Shown: piece after piece, positions 55,302-62,332 of the stretch | Layout of the letters: each line of letters starts with the position of its first letter | Position numbering within the stretch: position 1 is the stretch's first letter | NCBI GenBank assembly: GCA_945881875.1 | Contig: CAMCVH010000001.1 | Location: 496,001-560,000, forward strand | Source: Polynucleobacter meluiroseus | Lineage (GTDB): Bacteria; Pseudomonadota; Gammaproteobacteria; Burkholderiales; Burkholderiaceae | Length of the DNA stretch: 64,000 bases | Direction of reading: 5' to 3' | Notes under the pieces: model-generated | Told to the model about the DNA's origin: nothing | The model's database searches: none | The model's input: only the letters and a program-made list of their open reading frames with translations | Made by a program: the position numbers and the translations under genes

Positions 55302-55847
55302 TTAAGAAATCTTAGCTTTGTTAGATGAGCAAAGAGCCCAAGAGAATACTGAGTTAGCAATGAACTTCTTTTTCTGAACAGCCTCACGCTTAGCTGCAAT
55401 TGCTTTCTTTTGAATCGCAGCAGCAACTTTGGTTGAGGTCTTTTCTTTCTTTTGCTTAATTGCTGATGGATTTAATTTGTCTTGGTTCTGTTGAACCAAC
55501 ATGCCTAAATTAATGCTATCCATATGTTCCAACATAAATGTCTCTAATGAGGACCAAAGCTCATTCGCTTCATTAGTCTTAGTGTTACTGTAATCAATCG
55601 CAATCACAATATCTTTTAAGCTGATTTGGTTGGCATCTCTGGCTAAAACATAGCCGCCGCCGGGACCTCTAAAGCTGTTAACAACTTCAGCTTTTCGCAA
55701 TGAAGCAAATAACTGCTCTAAATAAGATAAAGAAATGTCACGTCTCTCAGCAATTTCAGCCAAAGAAACAACTCCACCGTCTTTGGAGTGAAGAGCTAAA
55801 TCAATTAAGGCTGTAACTGCTGCACGGCTTTTAGTTGTAATACGCAT
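55302..55847 (-). CDS. Rrf2-family regulator lacking the Fe-S cysteines
   Basis: A 181-residue IscR/Rrf2-type regulator. The DNA-binding part is classic: MRITTKSRAAVTALIDLALHS, then SLSYLEQLFASLRKAEVVNSFRGPGGGYVLARD. IscR-type members bind [2Fe-2S] through three cysteines in the 90-106 region; here that region (YSNTKTNEANELWSS) has none, and the only Cys is near the C-terminus. The tail (about 125-165) is lysine/alanine-rich and helical. A perfect inverted repeat sits over its own promoter, so it probably represses itself. The signal it senses is unknown. Confidence 0.88.
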   Translation of the reverse strand: MRITTKSRAAVTALIDLALHSKDGGVVSLAEIAERRDISLSYLEQLFASLRKAEVVNSFRGPGGGYVLARDANQISLKDIVIAIDYSNTKTNEANELWSSLETFMLEHMDSINLGMLVQQNQDKLNPSAIKQKKEKTSTKVAAAIQKKAIAAKREAVQKKKFIANSVFSWALCSSNKAKIS

Positions 55848-55979: not shown

Positions 55980-56792
55980 TTATTGATTCACCACTTTAGG
56001 AAATTGATTTTGACTGAGATTCTGATTGATCTTATCAACAATGGGTAATAAATCAGCCACAGAATCAATAACAAAGTCAGGCTTCATGGCAGCCATCCGA
56101 TCTCGTGCAATTTGAACCAATGACGCTTTCTCAAGTTCTGGGAGTTGATTGAACTCTTCCAAAGACAATCCTAATGCATTGCCAGTTACTGCAACACCTA
56201 CAGTCCAACATCCAAAATTCTTACCCTCATCAATACCTGGTTGGGTATCATCAACTTTAATCATTTGGTGAGGTTGATCGATACCAAAAAAATCTGCGCA
56301 TCGCTTCATCATCTGTGGACTTGGTCTGCCACTTGGCGTATCACCAGAACACAATGAAATTTCAGGTCTATAACCCTGTTTTGCCGCAAGAGGCTCAAGC
56401 ACATCCATCAGCTCCCTCACATAACCTGTAGTTGATCCAATTCTAATATCGTTAAATTCAAGATGATGAACCACGTCGACTACACCCGGAATCACATCAG
56501 AACATTCAATTAAGCTCACTTTATTCATTGGAATAAACTCATTGAGTAGCTTATCGATATCCGCAGCTATAGATTCTCTTTGATAAGTATTGAACCACTG
56601 ACTTTTCACATGAGGCATTTCAAGAAGCTCTTGAATATGATCCCACTTGTTCAGCCCCATTGGAACTCTGGCATCATCAATCGTAATATCTAAGCCATTT
56701 TTTTTAAACAGTTTTACAAAAGCCTCCATAGGTGCTCTGCTACCAAAGTCTACTGTTGTTCCAGCCCAATCGAAAATTACCGCTTTAATCAT
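55980..56792 (-). CDS. phnX: Phosphonoacetaldehyde hydrolase (phosphonatase)
   Basis: PhnX splits phosphonoacetaldehyde to acetaldehyde and phosphate. This 270-residue HAD-fold enzyme has the nucleophile Asp8 in IFDWAGTTVDFG, the Schiff-base Lys49 in PMGLNKWDHI (the same 41-residue distance as Asp12-Lys53 of the Bacillus enzyme), SGDTPSGRPSPQM and VDDTQPGIDEG, so it is a canonical phosphonatase. ATG at 56792 follows the stop of the FAD gene by 2 bp. It is the last gene of the operon. The usual upstream partner PhnW (AEP transaminase) is absent. Confidence 0.95.
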   Translation of the reverse strand: MIKAVIFDWAGTTVDFGSRAPMEAFVKLFKKNGLDITIDDARVPMGLNKWDHIQELLEMPHVKSQWFNTYQRESIAADIDKLLNEFIPMNKVSLIECSDVIPGVVDVVHHLEFNDIRIGSTTGYVRELMDVLEPLAAKQGYRPEISLCSGDTPSGRPSPQMMKRCADFFGIDQPHQMIKVDDTQPGIDEGKNFGCWTVGVAVTGNALGLSLEEFNQLPELEKASLVQIARDRMAAMKPDFVIDSVADLLPIVDKINQNLSQNQFPKVVNQ

Positions 56793-56794
56793 TT

Positions 56795-57934
56795 TTATAT
56801 CCAATCATCAAAATTGTCTTTTGCTAAACCAAAAGCTGTACTTGCACCTGTACCACTGGTAACAACCGCTACTCTTAAAGAGTCTGAAACCTTCTCAATG
56901 ATGGCATCTTGTTGACTTGAAGATGGATAGACACCAGTCCAACGCTCCAAAACCTTAAATTGAGAAAAATTAATTGTTTGCCCCAAAAGCTCAATAATTA
57001 ACTGATCGATTCTGTCTTTGGCAAAAACATCTTCAACATTGCCATATTGATGAGAATCACCAATCACAAGACTACCGTCTGAACTTTGAACGGCAATTAA
57101 ATGGATACCTTCTTTTAAAAATTCAGGCATTTCTTTTTGGATTTTTACTTTTAGCGCTAAAGCCTCTGGTAAATCTGCCCACCCAAGATACCGAGCAAGA
57201 CTATTGTCAGTCATCACAGAACCAGGAAGGATGATGTGGTCGTCAACTTTTACTCTTAACATTTGTAATGTGCATAACTGAATATCATGCTGAGCTAAAT
57301 ATTTTTTTGCAATCCCGCTTAAGTCAGCACCTGGACAAATCACAACTTTTTCAGTATAAAAAGTTCCGGCCGACGTATGAATCTGTGAGTCATCACAAGA
57401 AAATACTTCTGCTCCCCAACAAAAATCAACCTTTAAGGAAGAGCTTAACCAATCAGCCATCATTGGAATGGCTTCACGAGACTCAACACGAAACTCATGA
57501 GGGCTGTAAAGCAAACCTGCCGCATGATCAAGCCGAAGCGCTGAGATATTTTTAAATCCTAAACTTTCTAAGTGAGAAAAATCCTTCGGCCTGAATAACT
57601 GGCAATCAGCTCCCATATCAGTATTTAAAAATGCACTAGCAACATCCAATGCCTCTGGTCTCTGGCAAACGATCCAGCTTCCTCTATGGATAATTGGAAT
57701 ACCCGCCTTTTCTGAAATGGATGCCCAAACATCTCTCGAATATCTAGCTCTTCTCCAAGTGTCTTTACTTGACTGTCCGGAAACCGTTATAAATCCAAAG
57801 TTTCTAACGGATGCTCCAACACAAGATTGATTTTTCTCAATAATCAGAACTGATAGGCCCCTTTGAACTGCCTCGTAGGCGTGCGCCATACCAACAATTC
57901 CAGCACCAACAATCACTAAATCATATTTCTTCAT
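56795..57934 (-). CDS. Phosphonate-associated FAD oxidoreductase (TIGR03364-like)
   Basis: A 379-residue DAO-fold flavoprotein: DLVIVGAGIVGMAHAYEAVQRGLSVLIIEK, then CVGASVRNFGFI, SPHEFRVESREAIPMMADWL in outline, ICPGADLSG, LQMLRVKV, VIGDSHQYGNVEDVF and RWTGVYPSSS. This matches the family recorded as TIGR03364, found beside phosphonate genes and proposed to deaminate an aminophosphonate oxidatively; related enzymes have been reported to act on N-methylated 2-aminoethylphosphonate (recalled, not looked up). Here it sits between the dehydrogenase (4 bp) and phnX (2 bp), so it may make phosphonoacetaldehyde in place of PhnW. Confidence 0.87.
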   Translation of the reverse strand: MKKYDLVIVGAGIVGMAHAYEAVQRGLSVLIIEKNQSCVGASVRNFGFITVSGQSSKDTWRRARYSRDVWASISEKAGIPIIHRGSWIVCQRPEALDVASAFLNTDMGADCQLFRPKDFSHLESLGFKNISALRLDHAAGLLYSPHEFRVESREAIPMMADWLSSSLKVDFCWGAEVFSCDDSQIHTSAGTFYTEKVVICPGADLSGIAKKYLAQHDIQLCTLQMLRVKVDDHIILPGSVMTDNSLARYLGWADLPEALALKVKIQKEMPEFLKEGIHLIAVQSSDGSLVIGDSHQYGNVEDVFAKDRIDQLIIELLGQTINFSQFKVLERWTGVYPSSSQQDAIIEKVSDSLRVAVVTSGTGASTAFGLAKDNFDDWI

Positions 57935-57938
57935 ATTC

Positions 57939-59003
57939 TTAATTTGATCCTAGAAAATTTTTACCTCTTGGAGACTGTTTTGCCTGCTCAATTTTGATAA
58001 TTTGCCCTTGAGTAAGATGATATGGATCAGATGCTGGAATGCCAAGTGACTTAAGCCAATCCAATAATCCCTTAGGTGATGATAAATGCTGACCTAAAGC
58101 AATCTCAAGAGAATCATTCATCAAACTTTGATGAGGTAGTTCTTTTGCTATTTTCAATACGATTGGCAACCAAATGGCGCATGCAAAGCCATGGCTAAAT
58201 TGATGATGGATTGTTTCATCATATGAAAGTGCATGAACAAGTGAAGTTTGAGTTTTTGCCATGGCAAGTCCAGCCAAAAGAGAAGCTTCGCTCATTTCTT
58301 TTCGGGCTTCAGAATTATTGATATTGATGAGCAATAAAGGAAGGTTATTGCAAATTTTTTGAATAGCTTTGATCGCTTGATCCCTAGTTTCAGCGGTAGC
58401 ATTCTTATTCCAAATAGACTCCATGGCATGAGAAAGAGCGTCTAATCCTGAATCTCTAGTTAACACCCAGGGAGCTCCAAAACATAATTGATGGTCAATC
58501 ATTGCTTGATCTGCATAAACTTCTGTCCCAAAGAAAGAATGCTTTTTATGAGAGTTGAAGTCCCAAATCGTTGCAGTGCCAGTCACTTCACTGCCAGTAC
58601 CAGCCGTCGTTGGCGCTAAGATTAATGGATGCTTATTAACAAAATCAGGAATTAAATTCAATGGTGAATCTAACTGGCTTTTGAACCAACTTTTTTCAAG
58701 TGTAGTGAATCGAATGACTTTAGCAAAATCCATTAAGCTTCCGCCCCCAATACCTAAAATAACTGAATGGGGATCTTTTACAGTTAAGGAAAATTGCTCA
58801 TGCATAGCAGCCACTTGATTCAACTCAGGCATTCCGTAGTGATATGTTTGCTGAGTAAGAATTCGACTACCTAAATTACTTTTGATATTTCTTAAGAATC
58901 CATTATCAATCTCAGGAATATGCCAAAGATGGATATTTCTGTTGGGGTATAAATGACACAACTCTTCGATTGAGTTTGAGCCAATATAAATATTAGGCTT
59001 CAT
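57939..59003 (-). CDS. Phosphonate-associated iron-containing alcohol dehydrogenase
   Basis: A 354-residue group III iron alcohol dehydrogenase. It has the NAD-binding GIGGGSLMDFAKVI, APTTAGTGSEVT, and the metal ligands in GLDALSHAMESI, VHALSY and HHQFSHGFACAIW. It fits the subgroup linked with phosphonate genes, whose biosynthetic relatives reduce phosphonoacetaldehyde to 2-hydroxyethylphosphonate (PhpC). In this catabolic operon the reverse reaction, feeding PhnX from 2-hydroxyethylphosphonate, is the likely role; disposing of acetaldehyde made by PhnX is an alternative. It lies 2 bp after phnE and 4 bp before the FAD gene. Confidence 0.85.
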   Translation of the reverse strand: MKPNIYIGSNSIEELCHLYPNRNIHLWHIPEIDNGFLRNIKSNLGSRILTQQTYHYGMPELNQVAAMHEQFSLTVKDPHSVILGIGGGSLMDFAKVIRFTTLEKSWFKSQLDSPLNLIPDFVNKHPLILAPTTAGTGSEVTGTATIWDFNSHKKHSFFGTEVYADQAMIDHQLCFGAPWVLTRDSGLDALSHAMESIWNKNATAETRDQAIKAIQKICNNLPLLLININNSEARKEMSEASLLAGLAMAKTQTSLVHALSYDETIHHQFSHGFACAIWLPIVLKIAKELPHQSLMNDSLEIALGQHLSSPKGLLDWLKSLGIPASDPYHLTQGQIIKIEQAKQSPRGKNFLGSN

Positions 59004-59005
59004 TT

Positions 59006-59818
59006 CTAGCTTGTTAGACGCCTTAAAAAAGAAGAAATCAAATCAATAATAGTCACTGTAACAATTAAGATAATTAAAACTGCGCATGTCTCAGCATATT
59101 GAAAGCCTCGGATCACTTCATAAAGGATAACTCCTATACCGCCGGCGCCGACCATGCCAACAACTGATGCTGATCGAACATTTGATTCAAATCTGTAGAG
59201 CGAGTAAGAAATCCACAATGGCATGACTTGTGGAAGAATTCCAAAAACAATCTCTGCGATGGGGTGGCTTCCAGTAGCTCGAATACCCTCAACAGGTCTT
59301 GAATCTACAGCTTCAACGGCTTCAGAGAATAATTTAGCCAAAGTACCAGTTGTATGTACAAAAAGAGCTAAAACTCCTGCAAACGGCCCTAAACCAACAG
59401 CCACAATGAATAACATAGCAAATACCATCTCATTGATGGCACGCAAAGCATCCATTAAACGTCTGAGTGGTTGATATATCCAAGGCTTGACAACATTTGA
59501 TGAACTTAAAAGGCCTAGTGGCACAGCAAAAATAATTGCTAGTAAAGTTCCCCAAATAGCTATTTGAACGGTTACCAACATTTCGGAAACGTATAGCTTC
59601 CAATCTTTAAAACTTGGCGGGAAAAAATCCTTGGTGTAGGTCGCCATATTCCCAGAATCTTTGATCAAGTCCATGGGGCGAATTTCTGCCCCATGCCATG
59701 ACCATGCTAAAACTAAAAAAAATACTGCCCAACCAATGTAATAAGTAAAACCAGGTCTCTGAGCTAAGGCTCTCGCCTTAGCTTTATCAATAGATTCAGG
59801 ACTTGGAATACTTGTCAC
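59006..59818 (-). CDS. phnE: Phosphonate ABC transporter permease PhnE
   Basis: The membrane subunit of the PhnCDE importer. The 270-residue protein has an N-terminal cytoplasmic part, about six membrane segments and the family segments [30 protein letters not shown] and [25 protein letters not shown] in outline. The start is a GTG placed directly after the phnD stop codon, so translation is probably coupled. One PhnE only, so the channel should be a homodimer. Confidence 0.93.
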
Positions 59819-60763
59819 TTACTTAAGTTTTGCTAATGCAGCATCAATTTCAGCAAATTTCTTTGTCTTTTCAGCATCAGAAATTGTTGTATCAGCTTGT
59901 ATCTTGCTACGATCCTTAAATAACTCAAGTTGACGAATTGGATTCAATTGAGCATTTGTAGAGGCTCTAAAACCAGCGTAGTTATAGATATTCTTAAGAA
60001 CATCTTTTTCAGCTTGATTGGTCTTAGCGTAGTTAAGAACAAACTTTCTGATTTTTTCCTTAGTGTCTTTGTCTAAGTCTGTTCTCCATACAAACGGATC
60101 ACTCGGAATCAAAGGGCTTTTCCATACAACACGGATTTCTTTTGCCAATTCAGGCTTAGTTGCTTCTAAACGACCCATATCTTCAGTGTTGTTTGTTGCA
60201 ACATCAAGTTGCTTAGCAAGGATAGCTTGGATATTTGCGCCATGACTTGCATTTCTTACTGTTTTAAAAGTGTCACGAGCTTCGATTTTTCGTTGCGCGA
60301 AAATGTAATAAGACGGCACTAAAAAACCAGAAGTTGAGTTAGGATCACCAATACCAAAATTAATATTTTTACCGTTTTTGATAACGTCATCTAGAGTCTT
60401 ATAAGGAGAATCCTTATGCGTAATCAAAAGTGCGTGATAACCCCAAGTACCGTCAGCGTAACCAACTTGCGCGAATACCTCACCGCTTGCACGATCAACA
60501 GCTTCCATTGCAGCTTTATTACCATACCAAGCTACTTGAATTTTATTAAAACGCATGGCTTCAATAACACCTGCATAGTCTGGGGCATAGAATGATTTAA
60601 CAGTCAAACCAGTTGCTTTTTCCATATCACGGAAAAACGGCTCCCAACGATCACGCTGAGCTGTAGCAGAGTCAGTTGCAATAATTCCAAAACTAATTTC
60701 TTTTGCAAAGACAGAAACTGTACTTAATGCCAGCATTCCAATAACAATTGCTTTTTTTAACAT
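59819..60763 (-). CDS. phnD: Phosphonate ABC transporter substrate-binding protein PhnD
   Basis: The periplasmic phosphonate-binding protein, 314 residues with a signal peptide (KKAIVIGMLALSTVSVFA). Family segments: FGIIATDSATAQRDRWEPFF, KSFYAPDYAGVIEAMRFNKIQVAWYGNKAAMEAV in outline, GIGDPNSTSGFLVP and KSPLIPSDPFVWR. The TDSA and STSG loops form the phosphonate pocket in PhnD, which prefers 2-aminoethylphosphonate. AGGAG lies 5 nt before the ATG. It is 15 bp after phnC. Confidence 0.95.
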   Translation of the reverse strand: MLKKAIVIGMLALSTVSVFAKEISFGIIATDSATAQRDRWEPFFRDMEKATGLTVKSFYAPDYAGVIEAMRFNKIQVAWYGNKAAMEAVDRASGEVFAQVGYADGTWGYHALLITHKDSPYKTLDDVIKNGKNINFGIGDPNSTSGFLVPSYYIFAQRKIEARDTFKTVRNASHGANIQAILAKQLDVATNNTEDMGRLEATKPELAKEIRVVWKSPLIPSDPFVWRTDLDKDTKEKIRKFVLNYAKTNQAEKDVLKNIYNYAGFRASTNAQLNPIRQLELFKDRSKIQADTTISDAEKTKKFAEIDAALAKLK

Positions 60764-60778
60764 AAAAACTCCTATTTA

Positions 60779-61624
60779 TTAATTAACAAGAACTAACTGC
60801 GGACGCTTTACTTCATCTGAATGTGATAACTCATCATCCATTTCAATATCCCCTACTTGGGATCCATATAGATTCGCTAAAGATTCTCTAGACAAATCAT
60901 TTGTTTTTCCATCAAATACCAAAGACCCTCGATTGAGTGCAATGGTTCTGTCGCAAAACTTTCTAGCAATAGCTACCTGATGCAGGCTGGTAACTAAAGT
61001 TAGTCCAAACTGCTGACTTAGATTGACAATTAAATCCATGACTTTTCTTGCGGACTCAGGATCGAGAGATGCGACTGGTTCATCAGCAAGTAATAGTTTT
61101 GAACCTTTCACCAAGGCTCTCGCAATCGCAACTCGTTGCTGCTGACCTCCTGATAAAGTAGATGATCGTTGATAGGCATAATCGACCATTCCTACTTTTT
61201 CTAAAGCATCTAGAGCAAGAGCTTTTTCATCCATCGTGAATCGTCTGAGTACTAATTGGAAAATATTTTTCTGAGGTCCAAGCCCAATGAGTACGTTAGT
61301 AATGACATCTAACTGATTAACTAAATTGAACTGTTGGAATATCACGCCAATCGAGGATCTAATTTCACGGACGTTTTCGCTAGTTTTGCCATTTATCTGA
61401 ATGATATGATCATTAACAGTAATTGGACCACTACAAGTATCTAGTCTTTCTAATCCACAGATTGCCCGAATGAGGGTTGACTTACCTGAACCAGAGGCGC
61501 CAAGTAAGGCAACTGTTTCGCCTTGATTGACGGAGATAGAAACATTTTTTAAAGCGATGGTCTTTCGCTCTGATCCAGAAAATGTCTTGTTTGCATTGTC
61601 GACAATAAGCATTTGATCACTCAC
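60779..61624 (-). CDS. phnC: Phosphonate ABC transporter ATPase PhnC
   Basis: The ATPase of the importer, 281 residues. Walker A GASGSGKST, Q-loop FQQFNLVNQLDVITNVLIG, signature LSGGQQQR, Walker B KLLLADEPVASLDP and switch region TSLHQVAIARKFCDR are present; QQFNLV is typical of PhnC. The C-terminus is longer than usual by an acidic tail (GDIEMDDELSHSDE). A GTG start overlaps the stop of the PhnZ-like gene by 4 bp; ATG at 61612 is an alternative. Confidence 0.94.
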   Translation of the reverse strand: MSDQMLIVDNANKTFSGSERKTIALKNVSISVNQGETVALLGASGSGKSTLIRAICGLERLDTCSGPITVNDHIIQINGKTSENVREIRSSIGVIFQQFNLVNQLDVITNVLIGLGPQKNIFQLVLRRFTMDEKALALDALEKVGMVDYAYQRSSTLSGGQQQRVAIARALVKGSKLLLADEPVASLDPESARKVMDLIVNLSQQFGLTLVTSLHQVAIARKFCDRTIALNRGSLVFDGKTNDLSRESLANLYGSQVGDIEMDDELSHSDEVKRPQLVLVN

Positions 61625-62175
61625 GAACAGCTCACCATCAAATCGTTAAGCTCACTAAGCACTTCTTCTTTGCTTAGCAAACTACATTCTGAATCTTTTG
61701 CTTGATCATCCCATCGGCGGAGCGCTATTGCATCCAGAGCAAATGGCTTAGATAAAAAGTTTTGGCATTCCTCGATAGATAAAGGACCACCCTGCAAGGC
61801 TAAACTTCTAATAGAATCCGATGAAAGCTTTTCTGAATAACTACTGTCTGTTGCGACTAAATATCTCTTTGCTTCAACATGAAGGGCAATGGGTGCAAAT
61901 ACGGCTTCAGGAAACAAATGCTTTAAAAAATTACTCCCAACCAGCTCATGGCGATCATTGTGACCTTTGAGTGTGGGGGTTTCACCTTCTTTTGATAGTA
62001 AATGGCCAATATCATGAAGCCAAGCAGCTAATTGCAATTTAAGAGATGCGCTATTTGTTTTTGCTAGCTGTCCACATTGCCAAGCATGTTCAATCTGACT
62101 AACACCTTCACCAAAATAGGACAAATCACCATTTGTGCGATAAATGTTGTCAATTTGCCTGAAAATTTCACTCAT
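61621..62175 (-). CDS. PhnZ-like HD-domain phosphonate oxygenase
   Basis: PhnZ is a di-iron HD-fold oxygenase that cleaves (R)-2-amino-1-hydroxyethylphosphonate to glycine and phosphate. This 184-residue protein keeps every residue that I know to matter in PhnZ: Tyr20 and Glu23 (YFGEGVSQIEH), His30, His54-Asp55 (WLHDIGH), His58, His76 (DRHE), His99 and Lys103 (LHVEAKRYL), and Asp156 (RRWDD). The segment LQGGPLSIEEC also matches. The partner hydroxylase PhnY is not present. It is the first gene of the phosphonate operon and overlaps phnC (GTGA), so its product is tied to phosphonate uptake. Confidence 0.9.
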   Translation of the reverse strand: MSEIFRQIDNIYRTNGDLSYFGEGVSQIEHAWQCGQLAKTNSASLKLQLAAWLHDIGHLLSKEGETPTLKGHNDRHELVGSNFLKHLFPEAVFAPIALHVEAKRYLVATDSSYSEKLSSDSIRSLALQGGPLSIEECQNFLSKPFALDAIALRRWDDQAKDSECSLLSKEEVLSELNDLMVSCS

Positions 62176-62310
62176 CCATGTAATTTCTCACGCCTGTGTT
62201 TCAAATGTATTTCAGATTGGTTAAAACATGAAAAATAATATGACGGCTATAAAATACTGCTAAGTAAATGAATTTAAATAGTTTTTTATATGATTAATTA
62301 TATAAATAAA

Positions 62311-62332
62311 AAACCACCCGAGGGTGGTTTTT
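62311..62332. terminator. Bidirectional terminator between the unknown gene and the phosphonate operon
   Basis: AAACCACC-CGA-GGGTGGTTT forms an 8-bp stem flanked by an A run and a T run. It ends the phoX/unknown transcript. The gap from here to 62175 should hold the phosphonate operon promoter; no convincing Pho box is visible (best units CCGTCAT and TTTTTCA). Confidence 0.88.

Follow-up and report, generated by a model that had tools for sequence, protein, structure and literature searches.

A seven-gene phosphonate operon was analysed in the genome of Polynucleobacter meluiroseus (GenBank assembly GCA_945881875.1), within a stretch of 64,000 nucleotides of contig CAMCVH010000001.1 (positions 496,001 to 560,000 of the forward strand), hereafter the window. 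Genes for the uptake and cleavage of carbon-phosphorus compounds form one compact set in this freshwater bacterium. Judged from sequence, the operon probably encodes a phosphonatase pathway that works without the transaminase PhnW and in which the phosphonoacetaldehyde hydrolase PhnX has two entries, one from an amine and one from an alcohol. Phosphonates would be imported by PhnCDE. A PbfD-type flavoprotein would oxidatively deaminate N-methyl-2-aminoethylphosphonate (M1AEP), 2-aminoethylphosphonate (AEP) or both to phosphonoacetaldehyde, a reaction shown for its relatives, and an iron-type alcohol dehydrogenase (Fe-ADH) would oxidise 2-hydroxyethylphosphonate (HEP) to the same aldehyde with NAD(P)+. 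The PhnX family cleaves phosphonoacetaldehyde into acetaldehyde and phosphate; being irreversible, this cleavage would drive the otherwise unfavourable oxidation of the alcohol. An HD-domain oxygenase would independently cleave an imported (R)-1-hydroxyphosphonate, most likely (R)-2-amino-1-hydroxyethylphosphonate ((R)-HAEP); the substrate would be taken from outside, because no PhnY*-type oxygenase to make it was found in the genome. Two entries into PhnX beside a separate HD branch had been proposed in the first-pass annotation. The amine entry is supported and was already published for PbfD, the predicted HEP entry draws support from gene context, phylogeny and residues, and the HD branch is likely.

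Absences in the P. meluiroseus genome (1.53 Mb) hold within its completeness of 97%. A functional phnW elsewhere in the genome, one half of the condition set at first pass for refuting the proposal, was sought by a genome-wide profile search and not found: the best match reached 21.1 bits (cut-off 400.8), and the PhnW step of the classical PhnW-PhnX pathway is lacking here. PhnW was common in the wider family, where it could be found above the cut-off in 86 of 200 genomes. Since the P. meluiroseus genome holds no PhnW over the cut-off, its PhnX should receive phosphonoacetaldehyde from a source other than PhnW. Nothing above the cut-off was found for PhnY in a genome search (best match 295.4 bits against 635.65), and the profile search for PhnA gave no match. 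PhnJ (PF06007) gave no match in the genome while the E. coli control did match, so that the C-P lyase pathway lacks PhnJ in this genome. The search for the PhyH family (PF05721), to which PhnY*-type hydroxylases presumably belong, also gave no match in this genome, and the PhnY*-PhnZ oxidative pathway is thus left without its PhyH-type hydroxylase.

PhnX scored well above the cut-off of its family (TIGR01422; Table 1), and alignment to a solved PhnX revealed that the FDWAGTT and MGLxK motifs were kept. Both the nucleophile aspartate and the Schiff-base lysine, as we take these residues to be, are conserved. The flavoprotein gene immediately precedes phnX, and its product exceeded the cut-off of TIGR03364, which is the annotation of PbfD1 (PMC10590968). 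Passages of the same paper describe that PbfD enzymes oxidise M1AEP to phosphonoacetaldehyde, that AEP is oxidised efficiently by one of the two enzymes tested, that PbfD can substitute for PhnW, and that pbfD occurs with phnX alone; an alcohol dehydrogenase is named in these passages only as an assay coupling enzyme (PMC10590968). Oxidation of M1AEP or AEP by the window flavoprotein is predicted by analogy with these relatives, and the earlier proposal that it feeds PhnX in place of PhnW is supported. The flavoprotein-to-PhnX route is already in print for this TIGR03364 member and is not new. A nearly exclusive preference for M1AEP, which would mean that AEP is not a phosphorus source for this bacterium, is possible but doubtful. 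AEP is disfavoured about 400-fold by PbfC and 18-fold by PbfD1, whereas the tested member of the PbfD2 subgroup takes AEP only 4-fold less well, and most genes of that subgroup lie in phnW-free clusters, according to passages of PMC10590968. The window cluster is likewise without phnW. One in-frame TAG could be observed in the pbfD copy of genome G023 (L026 / L129).

The gene context of the Fe-ADH was compared across 91 loci (the window, L024, L026, L030, L031 and L033 to L118), 80 of which were the best of 496 confirmed relatives in named genomes. Short loci (L001 to L021), same-contig copies (L022, L023, L025, L027 to L029) and L032, the second, 39% ADH of genome G027, were set aside. Many of the 91 loci are close kin, including nine near-identical Bradyrhizobium rows, so that the counts are not independent, and contigs end near the gene in some loci, so that presences are lower bounds. 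A tree was built by a quick method, with long branches meeting, and clade borders are unsure near the long rows L045, L115, L069 and L094. It revealed a clade of 39 rows containing the window protein (SH-aLRT 96), while the 52 PsrA-like rows occurred in two groups of 24 and 28 that the tree did not unite with support. Within 7 kb of the window-clade genes (n = 39), pbfD was present at 34 loci, PhnC at 34, PhnX at 32, HD at 30 and PhnA at 5, with PhnY and LysR at none. Within the same distance of the PsrA-like genes (n = 52), LysR was present at 47 loci, PhnA together with PhnY at 23, PhnX at 17, pbfD at 2 and HD at 1, and the PhnA+PhnY module and PhnX never occurred together. No phnW was located within 7 kb at any of the 91 loci, and at E 1e-5 the PhnW references from six loci matched nothing in loci L022 to L118 or the window.

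The order PhnD-PhnE-FeADH-flavoprotein-PhnX repeats in other genomes of the genus, with two loci cut by contig ends. The flavoprotein (E 1e-60 or better) was found in 9 of 151 genomes of the genus, that of P. meluiroseus included, and the same nine hold an Fe-ADH at least 46% identical. This recurring order and the co-occurrence in the same nine genomes argue that the arrangement is not due to chance. Across the 91 loci, exchange between PhnX and the PhnY+PhnA module required at least five switches on the tree with weak branches kept, fewer than with shuffled labels (mean 13.1, least 7); adjacent rows thus tend to share a module, as relatives should. PhnX and PhnY share the substrate phosphonoacetaldehyde, and PhnY with PhnA yields acetate, not acetaldehyde. 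An Fe-ADH that persists while its neighbour changes between PhnX and PhnY+PhnA would most simply supply phosphonoacetaldehyde.

The Fe-ADH could instead reduce the acetaldehyde released by PhnX to ethanol and recycle NADH. PhnX lies beside it in 32 of the 39 window-clade loci, and the related Fe-ADHs AdhE and EutG act, to our knowledge, on acetaldehyde. Yet an acetaldehyde reductase would be without its substrate beside PhnY and PhnA, because these make acetate, and 23 of the 52 PsrA-like loci pair the Fe-ADH with PhnA+PhnY with no PhnX nearby. Furthermore, window-clade ADHs persist in six genomes, all metagenome assemblies, without PhnX over the cut-off, pbfD-PhnX clusters manage without an Fe-ADH, and signature residues are common to the window-clade and PsrA-like sets. 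That the Fe-ADH mainly reduces acetaldehyde thus appears improbable, and this reading was rejected on gene context.

Seven of the 39 window-clade rows had no PhnX nearby, namely L034, whose contig ends inside the flavoprotein gene, L043, L053, L069, L090, L103 and L104. In the six genomes other than that of L034, PhnX was over the cut-off in none; all six gave weak matches, with no score above 51 bits (cut-off 220), and 14 controls also gave matches, none of which passed. PhnA was over the cut-off in four of the six, with a sub-cut-off piece in the genome of L069, and PhnY in two, where it adjoined PhnA on the same contig. None of PhnX, PhnA and PhnY was over the cut-off in the genome of L053. 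Twelve PsrA-like loci had neither module nearby; elsewhere in their genomes, PhnA was found in five and PhnX in two others. Several side observations concern these loci. L043 (3.2-9.9 kb) carries the same operon with the phosphonoacetate hydrolase PhnA in the place of PhnX. At L104 (4067-5056, minus strand), and also at L090 and L103, the window-clade Fe-ADH comes right after phnCDE with no pbfD or phnX nearby, and a PhyH-family dioxygenase adjoins the L104 cluster. Among the neighbours at L053 are a glycosyltransferase, a class III aminotransferase and an acetyltransferase. In L026, L029/L042, L040 and L044 the operon ends with PhnA behind PhnX; this PhnA, over the TIGR02335 cut-off in L026 and assigned by similarity in the others, would add a phosphonoacetate branch.

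The label of iron-type ADH given in the first-pass annotation proved correct by fold, metal ligands and domain content. PF00465 and PF25137 were both above the cut-off, and D188, H192, H257 and H271, which align to the metal ligands of 6jko, were invariant in 82 of 82 rows, which places the protein among the group III iron-type ADHs. The AlphaFold2 model (pLDDT 94.9) had the Fe-ADH fold and matched 6jko with Z 38.8 over 342 residues (root-mean-square deviation 3.1, 24% identity by structural alignment); on structure alone 6jko does not stand out, as many Fe-ADHs tie at Z 37.8-38.8. By profile, the best solved match was 6jko (E 1.1e-63), the sulfoacetaldehyde reductase BkTauF of B. kashiwanohense. 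Isethionate, the product of that reductase, is the sulfonate analogue of HEP. With the T257A and F265A changes hardly any isethionate oxidation is left, and in some homologues Tyr takes the place of Phe265, as described in passages of PMC6616044. In the profile alignment to 6jko, with the metal histidine common to both proteins as the reference point, Thr257 corresponds to T253 and Phe265 to Y261 of the window protein.

Residues were compared over the rows of at least 340 amino acids, which are 30 of the 39 in the window clade and all 52 PsrA-like ones, and over seven general Fe-ADHs from the genus. Alignment A2 comprised 43 of the 80 loci in addition to the window. Position 253 was Thr in 30/30 window-clade and 52/52 PsrA-like rows and Val in 7/7 general Fe-ADHs. 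Y261 was present in 30/30 and 51/52 rows and also in 7/7 general Fe-ADHs, and is therefore not discriminating. Ten further residues (T145, W147, S156, W198, N199, T251, S260, T264, C275 and G347) were common to both sets (at least 92% of rows) and absent from the seven general Fe-ADHs. These shared signature residues suggest that window-clade and PsrA-like Fe-ADHs may act on one and the same substrate. The window Fe-ADH scored far below the cut-off of TIGR03405 (PsrA, Phn_Fe-ADH), five more window-clade members scored 212.6-290.2, and filing the protein as a PsrA equivalog was ruled out on its score.

Action on another hydroxyalkylphosphonate, or reduction of phosphonoacetaldehyde to HEP that would curb toxic or excess aldehyde, is unlikely. 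The biosynthetic phosphonoacetaldehyde reductase PhpC is an Fe-type ADH (passages of PMC9381506), and a Vibrio relative of the Fe-ADH is annotated as a phosphonoacetaldehyde reductase. A reductase would nevertheless oppose PhnX or PhnY+PhnA, which most clusters carry, and the uptake genes that many carry, while most other alcohols would presumably give products that are not substrates of PhnX or PhnY.

Oxidation of HEP by the Fe-ADH is favoured over these roles, and several points weigh against it. The absence of PhnX from the six window-clade genomes is weak evidence, since these are metagenome assemblies of unstated completeness. Five of the 12 PsrA-like cases without a nearby module (L072, L091, L097, L112 and a Vibrio plasmid searched alone) had neither PhnX nor PhnA over the cut-off; on the contigs of L091 and L097, about 2.7 kb of sequence follows the ADH before the contig ends. 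No phosphonate gene was found near the window-clade Fe-ADH of L053 (9.0-10.1 kb). The genome of L043 passes for PhnA but for neither PhnX nor PhnY, leaving the consumer of phosphonoacetaldehyde there unexplained. At L180, outside the 91 loci, a PsrA-like ADH lies about 6 kb from phnW, with a LysR gene and a pbfD relative also within about 8 kb, the sole proximity of Fe-ADH and phnW seen. The genome-wide phnW search covered, of the 91 loci, the P. meluiroseus genome and the genus members among the 200 genomes drawn. Most window-clade loci do hold PhnX, and acetaldehyde is a possible second substrate there. As the two PsrA-like groups are not joined on the tree, the view of one family with one function leans on the shared residues. 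Compared with the nearest relative (L003 / L022), identity was 86% for the Fe-ADH, 84% for HD, 95% for phnC, 99% for phnD, 98% for phnE, 94% for pbfD and 95% for phnX. The faster change of the Fe-ADH, equally low identity being seen for HD, together with its sub-cut-off TIGR03405 score, may reflect a relaxed or changed specificity.

The Fe-ADH and pbfD appear separable, as each occurs with PhnX without the other. Clusters that pair the Fe-ADH with PhnX, and in which neither pbfD nor phnW is annotated, were found in Agrobacterium and Comamonas antarctica (loci L113 and L118). The converse, pbfD with PhnX and no Fe-ADH, was found on plasmids (L155 to L157) and at L173 and L176 to L178, which are four of the eight other Burkholderiales pbfD loci obtained from 300 genomes searched. 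In the remaining four, pbfD lies beside PhnY at L175, phnW is near at L179 and L180, and L174 has neither; the Fe-ADH directly adjoined pbfD in none of the eight. Without its Fe-ADH, the window operon would be an ordinary PbfD-PhnX-PhnHD cluster, to which the Fe-ADH likely adds an alcohol entry. A major facilitator superfamily transporter resembling PgtP/GlpT, below the cut-offs of those families, was observed between the Fe-ADH and PhnX or PhnA-PhnY in a Pseudomonas (L063) and a Comamonas (L065) assembly, and is a candidate HEP transporter.

The HD protein narrowly missed the PhnHD family cut-off (TIGR03276), and PhnZ and TmpB were its nearest solved relatives. Residues Y20, E23, H30, H54, D55, H58, H76, H99, K103, R153 and D156 were invariant in 31 sequences, the window included. 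By comparison with PhnZ, we take H30, H54, D55, H76, H99 and D156 to be metal ligands and K103 and R153 to bind the phosphonate; the six ligands and the Lys/Arg pair of a PhnZ-like HD diiron oxygenase are thus kept. The HD enzyme likely acts separately on 1-hydroxy compounds, the branch assigned to it at first pass, given these residues and the precedent of pseudomonads that carry TIGR03276 proteins without PhnY* (passages of PMC11203657). In another survey, phnZ occurred in 15 of 1,186 phnWX and 24 of 75 phnWAY clusters and was tied to (R)-HAEP (passages of PMC8154272). Use of a product of other operon enzymes, rather than of an imported 1-hydroxyphosphonate, is very unlikely. A supply of PhnHD by HpnW has been raised as a possibility (passages of PMC11203657). 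HD is present in 30 and pbfD in 34 of the 39 window-clade loci, which agrees with such a link. Against it, the search of the P. meluiroseus genome found no PhyH-family oxygenase, and we know of no operon enzyme that makes a 1-hydroxyphosphonate.

All seven open reading frames (ORFs) could be confirmed on the minus strand, with transcription from 62175 to 55980 (Table 1), and gene identities were assigned by scoring NCBIfam profiles against curated cut-offs. PhnC, PhnD, PhnE, PhnX and the flavoprotein exceeded their own cut-offs. In transcription order, HD and phnC overlap by 4 bp, and the gaps that follow are 15 bp (phnC-phnD), 0 bp (phnD-phnE), 2 bp (phnE-FeADH) and 4 bp (FeADH-flavoprotein). 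The flavoprotein and phnX genes overlap by 10 bp with a TTG start of phnX, or are separated by 2 bp with the in-frame ATG at 56792. The tight run with gaps of 15 bp or less described earlier was thus borne out by ORF positions and profile identities.

Table 1. Features of the phosphonate operon in the window, in transcription order, followed by the upstream hairpin (profile scores in bits)
Feature	Position	Strand	Evidence
PhnZ-like HD-domain diiron oxygenase (PhnHD / Phn-HD)	61621..62175	-	TIGR03276 210.6, cut-off 214.6; PhnZ/TmpB nearest solved
phnC, phosphonate ABC transporter ATPase	60779..61624	-	TIGR02315 269.9, cut-off 266.1
phnD, phosphonate-binding protein	59819..60763	-	TIGR03431 314.5, cut-off 261.1; solved PhnD 3p7i, E 7.1e-96
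phnE, permease	59006..59818	-	TIGR01097 299.8, cut-off 216.7
Fe-ADH, proposed HEP dehydrogenase	57939..59003	-	TIGR03405 226.7, cut-off 423.7
PbfD-type FAD amine oxidoreductase (TIGR03364, alias HpnW)	56795..57934	-	TIGR03364 398.4, cut-off 285.1
phnX, phosphonoacetaldehyde hydrolase	55980..56792 (ATG start; TTG at 56804 possible)	-	TIGR01422 321.1, cut-off 220
Terminator-like hairpin between operon and upstream gene	62309..62332	-	10-pair stem, T-rich tail

The two terminator-like sites called upstream of the operon are both strands of one hairpin (mean 0.0 in shuffles), and no terminator-like site was found at the 3' end of the operon. With an assumed Pho box consensus and up to 3 mismatches, 12 matches were found in the window against 7.04 expected (12 were reached in 5 of 100 shuffles), and none lay before the operon. 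Two genes upstream, a PhoX alkaline phosphatase gene (PF05787; 62982-63998, minus strand) is truncated by the window edge. An IscR-like Rrf2 regulator, below the IscR cut-off, lies at 55302-55847 on the same strand, 132 bp past phnX, with no terminator-like site between.

The association of such dehydrogenases with phosphonate genes is not new, since the NCBI family name Phn_Fe-ADH already states it. No published test of the function of the PsrA/Fe-ADH family was found in the open-licence literature, and a published HEP dehydrogenase elsewhere is possible. A HEP dehydrogenase appeared in the available open-licence text only as a hypothesis for PbfF, which belongs to a different protein family and for which HEP oxidation was excluded by assay (passages of PMC12366243). 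A term search found none of HEP, hydroxyethylphosphon- and alcohol dehydrogenase in the main text of a review on the degradation of phosphonates from 2023 (PMC10574752). In the open-licence literature TIGR03405 turned up in one paper, on ribosomal peptides with two amino termini; the origin of the name PsrA was not found in that literature, and PMC6754898 contains both gene names, in unrelated passages.

On balance we lean towards a widespread family of HEP dehydrogenases, comprising the PsrA-like Fe-ADHs and the clade of the window protein, that would plug into either PhnX or PhnY+PhnA. In Alpha-, Beta- and Gammaproteobacteria we know of HEP use only via C-P lyase, with release of ethylene. 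If the proposal is true, a hydrolytic, ethylene-free HEP route would exist in these groups, and a function would be assigned to the named family PsrA. In high-molecular-weight marine dissolved organic matter, up to 20% of the phosphorus is present as methylphosphonate and HEP esterified to polysaccharides (passages of PMC9381506), and HEP is converted to ethylene by C-P lyase (passages of PMC5649143). Since a dehydrogenase route would release phosphate but no ethylene, HEP use could escape gas measurements; it could also be overlooked by gene surveys counting only phnJ, phnW or phnA.

The operon resembles several known systems and differs from each. As in the PhnY*-PhnZ and TmpA-TmpB oxidative pathways, its HD enzyme keeps what we take to be the metal- and phosphonate-binding residues of PhnZ, whereas no PhyH-family hydroxylase was found in the genome. 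With the PsrA / Phn_Fe-ADH clusters (TIGR03405), such as those of Comamonas antarctica, Ensifer and Leisingera, it shares the Fe-ADH family, the signature residues and the position beside PhnX or PhnA+PhnY. The PsrA-like ADHs differ in that the tree places them apart from the window clade, at 32-36% identity to the window protein (19 rows aligned), and in the presence of LysR at 47 of 52 loci against none of 39 in the window clade. BkTauF (PDB 6jko) has the same fold, and the equivalents of its Thr257 and Phe/Tyr265 are conserved in the window Fe-ADH; identity is only 24%, BkTauF acts on sulfonates, and its gene context is different (passages of PMC6616044). The Achromobacter cluster of HpnW, PhnX and PhnHD likewise unites flavoprotein, PhnX and PhnHD with phnW outside the cluster, and clusters of HpnW (TIGR03364), PhnX and PhnHD without phnW have been described in passages of the same paper (PMC11203657). 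The section on that cluster names seven genes, none of them an Fe-ADH, and leaves an eighth cistron without a name; the cluster has a PhnSTU-type transporter and a LysR gene, with phnW elsewhere in the genome (PMC11203657). The PbfD-PhnX pathway is also PhnW-free, with a PbfD-type flavoprotein that supplies phosphonoacetaldehyde to PhnX (passages of PMC10590968); the window operon differs in that its transcription unit also contains an Fe-ADH and an HD oxygenase.

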